Shown here: positions 51,880 to 53,275 of the stretch, one piece after another
Position numbering within the stretch: the first letter of the stretch is position 1
How the letters are laid out: each line of letters begins with the position of its first letter
Source: Neocallimastix lanati (nom. inval.)
Taxonomy: Eukaryota; Neocallimastigomycota; Neocallimastigomycetes; Neocallimastigales; Neocallimastigaceae
Assembly: GCA_016946835.1 (NCBI GenBank)
Contig: JACVTC010000009.1
Span: 1,150,001 to 1,214,000, forward strand
DNA: 64,000 nucleotides
Reading direction: 5' to 3'
The notes under the pieces: generated by a model
Databases searched by the model: none
Told to the model about the DNA's origin: nothing
Seen by the model: only the letters and a program-made list of their open reading frames with translations
Made by a program: the position numbers and the translations under genes

Positions 51880-53275
51880 ATGGTAATTATAAATATGTTA
51901 AAATTAAGATAAATTATTATGTGTAAAAGGGATGATAATTTTATTGATTAAAGTGATGATTTATTTGTATGGTCCGTGTTGTTGAGTGGGAAGTAAGACA
52001 CCCAAATACAATGATATCAATTTATTCCTACACCTCTGAAATAATCAATAAAATTAACTCTTAATGTTAATTTATATTACTTTTTTAAAATTATTATATA
52101 ATTTAAAAAATAAAAATTGTTAACATAACTTTATTTTAATATTATTTTAGTCCGCTGCCGCTAGACCAGTTATTACTGTATTTTCTCAATCTGGTGAGAG
52201 TACTACTACCGTTACTCTTCCAGCTGTTTTCAAGGCTCCAATTCGTCCAGATATTGTAAACTCTGTTCATACTAACATTGCTAAGAACAAGCGTCAACCA
52301 TATTGTGTTTCACCACAAGCTGGTCACCAAACCAGTGCTGAATCATGGGGTACTGGACGTGCTGTTGCTCGTATTCCACGTGTTTCTGGTGGAGGTACAC
52401 ACCGTGCCGGACAAGCTGCTTTTGGTAACATGTGTCGTGGTGGTCGTATGTTCGCTCCAACTAAGACCTGGAGAAAATGGCAAATTAAGACCAATCAAAA
52501 CCAAAAGAGATACGCTACCGTTTCAGCTGTTGCTGCTACTGGTGTTCCATCTCTTGTTTTCGCTCGTGGTCACAAGATTGACAATGTCGAAGAAATTCCA
52601 CTTGTCGTTGCTAACGATGTTGAATCATACACTAAGACAAAGGAAGCTATTTCTCTCTTAAAGTCAATAAATGCTTATGCTGAAGTTGAACGTTGCATTG
52701 CTTCAAAGAAGCTTCGTGCTGGTAAGGGAAAAATGAGAGGAAGAAGATACACTCAACGTCGTGGTCCACTCGTTATTTTCAATGAAGATAATGGTATTAC
52801 TAAGGCTTTCAGAAATATTCCAGGTGTTGAAACTGTTAATGTTAGCTCTCTTAACCTCTTACAATTAGCTCCAGGTGGTCACTTAGGTCGTTTCGTTATC
52901 TGGACTCAAGGTGCTTTTGAAAAACTTGACTCTGTCTTCGGTACTTTCAAAAAGGCCTCTGAAGCTAAGAAGGATTATAAGCTTCCACAAACTATTCTTA
53001 CTAATGCTGATCTCCCACGTATTATTAACTCTGATGAAATTCAAAGTGTTGTTAAGGCTGCTAATGAAAAGCACACTAAACGTCCATTCACTCAAAGAAA
53101 GAATCCACTTAAGAACGTTGGTGTTATGGTTAGATTCAATCCATACGCCCAAACTGTTAGACGTGCTGCTATGTTAAATGAAGAAGCTCGTGCTAACGGT
53201 AAGGCTAAGGCTGCAGCTAAAGCCAAGAAGGTTCAAAATAAGGAATGGATTTCTGCTCTTAAGTCCTTAAACTAG
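51880..53275 (+). CDS. RPL4: Large-subunit ribosomal protein uL4 (L4)
   Basis: Exon 1 is the start codon alone (51880-51882). The intron is 51883-52150 (GTAATT...TTTTAG) and exon 2 is 52151-53275, giving 375 residues, normal for eukaryotic L4. The N-terminus reads [17 protein letters not shown]. The conserved extended loop reads [20 protein letters not shown], then [28 protein letters not shown] and [21 protein letters not shown] segments are also family hallmarks. The C-terminal tail is Lys/Ala-rich. L4 lines the nascent-peptide exit tunnel with its loop. Codon use is strongly biased (GGT, GCT, AAG, CCA), as expected of a highly expressed gene and unlike the flanks. The intron carries a C/D box snoRNA (51937-52055). 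Confidence 0.95.
51937..52055 (+). ncRNA. Intronic C/D box snoRNA, U18 type (SNORD18/snR18)
   Basis: Inside the single RPL4 intron. Box C is GTGATGA (51953-51959) and box D is CTGA (52036-52039). A perfect 13-bp terminal stem pairs AATTTTATTGATT (51937-51949) with AATCAATAAAATT (52043-52055). A D'-like TTGA lies at 51982-51985 and a C'-like ATGATAT at 52011-52017. The guide ATGGTCCGTGTTG just upstream of D' is antisense to the universally conserved LSU rRNA segment AACACGGACC. The fifth base before D' (T51977) selects the A of ACACGG, which is the site methylated by U18 in yeast (25S Am649, with Cm650 next). Vertebrate U18 genes also lie in RPL4 introns. The second guide (TTATTCCTACACCT, before box D) has no target I can name. 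Confidence 0.85.

Follow-up and report, generated by a model that had tools for sequence, protein, structure and literature searches.

The RPL4 intron in the analysed window (the whole 64,000-nucleotide stretch of DNA) carries at 51949-52043 on the plus strand an element that its sequence identifies as a U18-type (SNORD18) box C/D snoRNA. It is very probably a functional U18 (SNORD18/snR18), made from the RPL4 intron and guiding methylation of LSU rRNA. The anatomy of the element, its complementarity to LSU rRNA, its host gene and its conservation between the two RPL4 paralogues of the genome are directly observed; anatomy, guide and paralogue, together with a genome-wide motif search, back the preliminary description, which had named a U18-type C/D snoRNA in an RPL4 intron.

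U18 would be transcribed within the RPL4 pre-mRNA, and the intron, once spliced out, would be debranched and trimmed by exonuclease up to the terminal stem, which would free the snoRNA for assembly with Snu13, Nop56, Nop58 and fibrillarin into a C/D RNP. Positions 51970-51980 would pair with LSU rRNA, and fibrillarin would 2'-O-methylate the adenosine opposite U51977. The features are collected in Table 1.

Table 1. Features of the RPL4 gene and its predicted intronic U18 snoRNA; positions refer to the window
Feature	Positions	Strand	Remarks
RPL4 start codon ATG, the coding part of exon 1	51880-51882	+	GT directly after ATG; paralogue L003 arranged alike
RPL4 predicted intron, 268 nt, GTAATT...TTTTAG, snoRNA host	51883-52150	+	272-nt paralogous intron at the same position, L003 (G000:C744)
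Terminal stem, 5' arm, 15 bp with 52042-52056	51936-51950	+	8 bp in paralogue
Predicted mature U18 box C/D snoRNA, ~95 nt, ends approximate	51949-52043	+	SNORD18 alignment 51948-52043; 88/96 columns identical in paralogue
Box C GTGATGA	51953-51959	+	ATGATGA in paralogue
Antisense guide TGGTCCGTGTT, 11 nt; U51977 is the +5 nucleotide	51970-51980	+	Duplex with LSU stretch of L018
Box D' TTGA, without the first C of CTGA	51982-51985	+	Same in paralogue
D'-C' spacer, 25 nt, possible small hairpin UGGG/CCCA	51986-52010	+	Longer than Rfam consensus; identical in paralogue
Box C' ATGATAT	52011-52017	+	Aligned to UGAUaU of SNORD18 consensus
Box D CTGA	52036-52039	+	Read from sequence
Terminal stem, 3' arm	52042-52056	+	Pairs with 51936-51950
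RPL4 exon 2 including stop codon	52151-53275	+	Open frame, Pfam and PDB sequence matches

The RPL4 host gene and the anatomy of the snoRNA

The host gene was assigned to RPL4 by Pfam (Ribosomal_L4, E 2.7e-37, with Ribos_L4_asso_C also matched) and by PDB sequences, the top matches among the best 60 of 83 being uL4 of fungi, animals and plants. With splicing read from the sequence, joining the ATG to exon 2 yields a protein of 375 aa, and the coding part, the 5' UTR being outside the count, has a single phase-0 intron after codon 1. Upstream of the start codon, a 30-nt block CCTTCTCTTATTAATTTATTCTTGTAAGGA at 51839-51868 is identical in both RPL4 paralogues, and its pyrimidine-rich start may be taken to recall a TOP element.

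The neighbourhood of the gene includes a long tandem repeat of the TAAAAAA type upstream (50930-51320) and, just downstream (about 53900-55745), reading frames resembling reverse transcriptase by eye. The tail of the second of these frames was found again in another locus of the genome (L038, 2589-3053), so the element is probably dispersed. On the minus strand at 27279-38267 there is an uninterrupted frame of 3662 aa which by eye resembles a dynein heavy chain, in keeping with a flagellated fungus. The GC content is 16-22%. Domains of the CBM_10 (fungal dockerin-type) family number at least 150 in the genome and are missing from 14 prokaryotic control genomes; a CBM_10 expansion of such size marks Neocallimastigomycota, the anaerobic gut fungi, to which the organism probably belongs.

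A box C of the form RUGAUGA and a box D CUGA lie near a terminal stem, as is characteristic of box C/D snoRNAs, the stem being perfect and placed 2 nt outside each of the two boxes. A perfect terminal stem had been described before with a length of 13 bp; its perfection holds and its length is 15 bp. In 2989 of 3000 dinucleotide shuffles of the intron no stem bracketed a C-D pair, and the best shuffle reached 5 bp. The boxes C, D and D' noted earlier are all present in the sequence, which also possesses a box C'. Both D' and C' are off consensus and unchanged in the paralogue; internal C/D boxes commonly deviate in this way. As a single strand the element folded no better than shuffled sequence: z was -0.95 when the stem was included, 1.34 when it was left out and 0.63 for the paralogue. 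The hairpin in the D'-C' spacer is not significant either (z -0.49).

Guide, target and family assignment

The guide next to D' is antisense to LSU ACACGGACCA, the complementarity by which U18 is recognised, and its 11 nt and the LSU stretch of locus L018 form a duplex of -19.9 kcal/mol, which bears out the claim of a guide antisense to conserved LSU rRNA. The fifth nucleotide from D' lies opposite the A that follows AAC in AACACGG, an adenosine which, by yeast numbering, we take to be the equivalent of yeast A649, the U18 site. On that numbering the +5 rule selects the adenosine methylated by yeast U18, as the preliminary description had it. The U18 target is given as one homologous site in four organisms (PMC8817022): Am844 (Dictyostelium), Am649 (yeast), Am1313 (human) and Am647 (Arabidopsis); some of the site numbers differ in PMC3511168.

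The target 21-mer TTGAAACACGGACCAAGGAGT is present at four places in the genome (L016-L019), three of which (L016, L018 and L019) were covered by the Rfam scan. In L019 an Rfam LSU match at 2964-4406, the longest of the three scanned, fully encloses the 21-mer (3774-3794). The LSU match in L018, which adjoins a 5.8S gene, ends at 4190 inside the 21-mer (4180-4200) and includes the target adenosine at 4187. The scan of L016 gave no match above the cut-off, and L017 is identical to L019 across the aligned stretch. None of the four places looks like a normal rDNA repeat; they resemble rRNA copies that are partial or degenerate, and the LSU matches of L018 and L019 are themselves partial.

In yeast U18 the C'/D' motif is altered, with a D' AUGA lacking the first C and a C' with an extra nucleotide, and this permits methylation of two adjacent nucleotides (PMC5389607). 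As the gut-fungus D' UUGA likewise lacks the first C, by analogy the cytidine following the target adenosine may possibly be methylated too, as with yeast U18. The gut-fungus C' has no yeast-type insertion, its AUGAUAU differing from AUGAGUGA in the yeasts.

The D' guide is probably the only one in use; the guide region adjoining box D is identical in 14 of 17 columns of the two copies and lacks a convincing target in LSU rRNA. There is no support for a second guide ahead of box D: in a test that took in LSU stretches only, the pairing of this region was no better than that of shuffles, 583, 897 and 668 of 1000 being as good in L018, L019 and L016, respectively. A possible accessory pairing of the D'-C' spacer with LSU rRNA is suggested by L019 only: for the best duplex with the LSU near the target, shuffled spacers were as good in 322 of 1000 cases in L018 and 608 of 1000 in L016; in L019 the duplex was unusual (16 of 1000), this being one of nine such tests. 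For the stretch 5' of the guide, 54, 123 and 20 of 300 shuffles were as good in L018, L016 and L019, respectively.

SNORD18 (RF00093) is the best Rfam match of the element among 4227 families. The score is 24.1 bits in the window and 28.0 bits in the paralogue, both below the gathering score of 41 bits; the respective E values, for 451 bases, are 0.032 and 0.0034. The alignment spans the model from first to last position, with 19 extra nucleotides inserted between D' and C'. No match in the window reached a gathering cut-off; the check with the Rfam U18 model, proposed earlier, upheld the family as the best one and fell short in score. Since neither copy qualifies for the Rfam family by score, the label U18-type is based on the guide, the target, the best-matching family and genome-wide uniqueness.

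The score alone proves little, because both copies are below the threshold and the model at E up to 10 also gives matches in 10 of the 14 prokaryotic control genomes, none of them above the cut-off. At the same E value, in a search where just 59 of 29,989 first-look candidates were scored, the model gave four matches in the genome, two being the RPL4 introns. The other two, on contigs C577 (27.3 bits) and C334 (24.2 bits), are taken for chance matches, as the DNA around them has a coding look by eye and they lack the guide motif. Both outscore the copy in the window, and scores from Rfam would therefore not suffice to pick out a real U18. Among other families, the U24 model had two matches of 36.2 and 30.0 bits, likewise below that family's 41 bits; U3, in contrast, was above its cut-off at nine places in the genome (for example C746:206527-206742), four of the nine lying close together as two pairs, on C520 and C62.

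Better proof than Rfam comes from a motif search, given the matches of the model in the controls and the small share of candidates scored. The window has one instance of the pattern TGATGA-N6..24-GGTCCGTGTT, while none of 100 window shuffles has any, and across the 199 Mb genome the pattern gave three overlapping matches at two places, both of them RPL4 introns, with no match for the reversed control. A chance assembly of AT-rich box-like words might be suspected, given that the intron is very AT-rich, which makes stems and TGATGA words common, and that the SNORD18 model returns two matches of similar score in coding-like DNA; with the motif missing from every shuffle and confined in the genome to RPL4 introns, such an assembly is extremely improbable.

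Outside this genome, the U18 pattern was found in four stretches of viral contigs and seven of bacterial and archaeal contigs, none of the 11 being snoRNA-like by eye and all having surroundings that look coding by eye; five of them (L023, L024, L025, L026, L031) were scanned with Rfam and gave nothing above the cut-off. An RPL4 peptide pattern matched four stretches in viral contigs, with none confirmed, and the search of viral, bacterial and archaeal contigs yielded no RPL4-U18 locus of another species. Judging by titles and abstract openings, none of the papers found for gut fungi and snoRNA dealt with this subject.

The second RPL4 gene and conservation of the snoRNA

A search of the genome DNA (199,045,447 bases) with 51930-52060 found the window and one other place, on contig C744. 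There a second RPL4 gene has its intron in the corresponding position behind the start codon, again with a U18 copy inside. The two RPL4 proteins differ at 3 of 375 residues; their coding sequences are identical at 1064 of 1122 positions. Of the 58 differences, 55 fall at third codon positions, so neither gene is a very recent copy of the other.

The paralogous introns are identical at all 59 positions of 51965-52023, a block including the guide, D', the long D'-C' spacer and C'. Identity is lower within the rest of the snoRNA, with 10 of 15 positions in 51951-51965 and the columns from 52024 to box D as given above. In the intron flanks, 31 of 56 columns are identical on the 5' side and 56 of 106 on the 3' side (50 of 117 under another alignment setting). 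The local alignment of the two introns scores 91, compared with a maximum of 24 in 500 shuffles; the flanks aligned alone are no better than shuffled pairs, of which 21 of 60 and 57 of 60 were as good. As the 59-nt block is unchanged while the flanks align like shuffles, the snoRNA is, on this comparison of sequences, under purifying selection within an intron that is drifting. The paralogue has a shorter terminal stem, and no compensatory changes were seen.

A sub-threshold Rfam score and a non-canonical D' are what a decayed or non-expressed U18 copy could have, and such a copy is very unlikely here: the core of the element is kept without a change inside a diverged intron, and apart from the element and its paralogue the genome yielded no U18 candidate.

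Origin of the RPL4 address

The host gene, RPL4 by Pfam and PDB sequences, is the one that houses U18 in vertebrates. In chicken RPL4, introns 2, 5 and 6 contain U18, and U16 occupies introns 1 and 3 (PMC2653536), and the human U18 host is RPL4 as well (PMC4015994), while the host in yeast is TEF5, i.e. EFB1 (PMC2705663); these papers agree with the hosts named in the preliminary description, RPL4 for vertebrates and EFB1 for yeast. In Candida albicans the host is also EFB1 (PMC2926782).

The gut-fungus element and vertebrate SNORD18/U18 (RF00093) share the boxes, the guide AUGGUCCGUGUU, the target and the RPL4 host, and the gut-fungus copy differs in its score below the cut-off, its D'-C' insertion and its D' UUGA instead of CUGA. 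The chicken introns 2, 5 and 6 stand against an intron after the ATG in the gut fungus, a comparison made by number only. With the snR18/U18 of Saccharomyces and Candida the target is common, and the host is different, being an intron of eEF1B (EFB1/TEF5) there. In Neurospora crassa, as in the gut fungus, there are two U18 isoforms in introns of one genome, CD46A and CD46B, with methylation guided by D' (PMC2780460). For Neurospora, Fusarium and Trichophyton U18 is described as intronic with no host gene named in the portions available, nor is a host gene given in those of PMC5033589, PMC2656528, PMC2246290 and PMC7671301; when Fusarium lacks the debranching enzyme, its intronic U18 is reduced (PMC9606315).

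Three eEF1B loci were found in the gut-fungus genome, two of which encode identical proteins of 221 aa and contain a 481-nt phase-2 intron in the glycine codon of ADKSYIEG, presumably the same codon and phase as those of the yeast EFB1 intron. The U18 guide is absent from all three loci, and Rfam at E up to 1 found nothing there either. That U18 is not in eEF1B despite an available intron fits an ancestral place in RPL4 with a later move in yeasts and, equally, independent settlement.

Since snoRNAs repeatedly enter the introns of highly expressed translation genes, we consider it on balance probable that gut fungi and the vertebrate line acquired U18 in RPL4 independently of each other. A coincidence of this kind has a low prior, RPL4 being one of about 80 ribosomal protein genes, and a shift between introns of one gene could also yield the difference in intron number, which otherwise speaks for separate settlement (PMC2653536). 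The mobility of snoRNAs is documented: Hoeppner and Poole found that 0 of 22 snoRNA introns of LECA age had homologous snoRNAs across supergroups, a result that is no direct test of fungi-animal pairs, as both belong to one supergroup (PMC3511168). Independent settlement also agrees with the eEF1B address of U18 in yeast and Candida and with the U32/U51 family, whose members are held by EEF1B2 in chicken (PMC2653536) and whose yeast homologues snR39/snR59 lie in RPL7 introns (PMC8476143), so that guests do change hosts.

The preliminary description had suggested that the RPL4 address may be ancestral to fungi and animals, with that of yeast derived; of this, the host gene shared with vertebrates stands, and ancestry is not established by it, the intron number being different. 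On this reading the yeasts, whose RPL4 genes are not known to contain introns, would have moved U18 to eEF1B. We hold an ancestral address to be possible, if somewhat short of probable. It is favoured by the common host gene of gut fungus and chicken (PMC2653536), by an eEF1B intron that is present in the gut fungus without U18, by the retention of U18 in both RPL4 paralogues and by the existence of long-lived pairs of snoRNA and host, given that 82% of fungi retain the snoRNA-bearing intron of RPL7 and 72% that of NOG2 (PMC8476143). It is weakened by the intron numbers, by the result of Hoeppner and Poole, by the sampling of one lineage and by the U24 loci of the same genome.

RPL7A is the vertebrate host of U24. 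The U24 model gave six matches in the gut-fungus genome at E up to 10, none above the cut-off, and it gives matches in 11 of the 14 control genomes; no RPL7A-like frame was recognised by eye in the 3-kb loci of the two best of the six. One of these loci (L038, G000:C13:1990071-1993148) has at about 1500-1975 a SNORD24-type snoRNA (36.2 bits) and an Afu_514-like one (24.1 bits), both below cut-off, with one or more additional C/D-like units in between by eye and no recognisable coding host, and the stretch is perhaps a snoRNA cluster or a non-coding host gene. The other locus (L039, G000:C468) contains tandem copies of the U24-like sequence TATTTGCTACTTCAGAGGGGGTCGCGCCCCAATGAGACAAATAAT at 1501-1585 and about 1775-1853, the first being the SNORD24 match of 30 bits, also below the cut-off.

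A fuller version of common descent would have U18 reside in RPL4 since before the split of fungi and animals, held there by selection for the joint output of uL4 and the guide, until the yeasts broke the pair on losing the RPL4 intron; this version seems rather unlikely, and if true it would make RPL4-U18 one of the oldest known pairs of snoRNA and host gene. U18 is an ancient guide, listed for plants, animals, yeast and amoebae, so its presence in a gut fungus is expected and the interest lies in its address. The element is a conserved, ordinary U18 snoRNA whose host gene is shared with vertebrates, possibly by inheritance. The vertebrate host gene and a U18-free eEF1B intron found together in one fungus bear on whether such an address is inherited or repeatedly settled.
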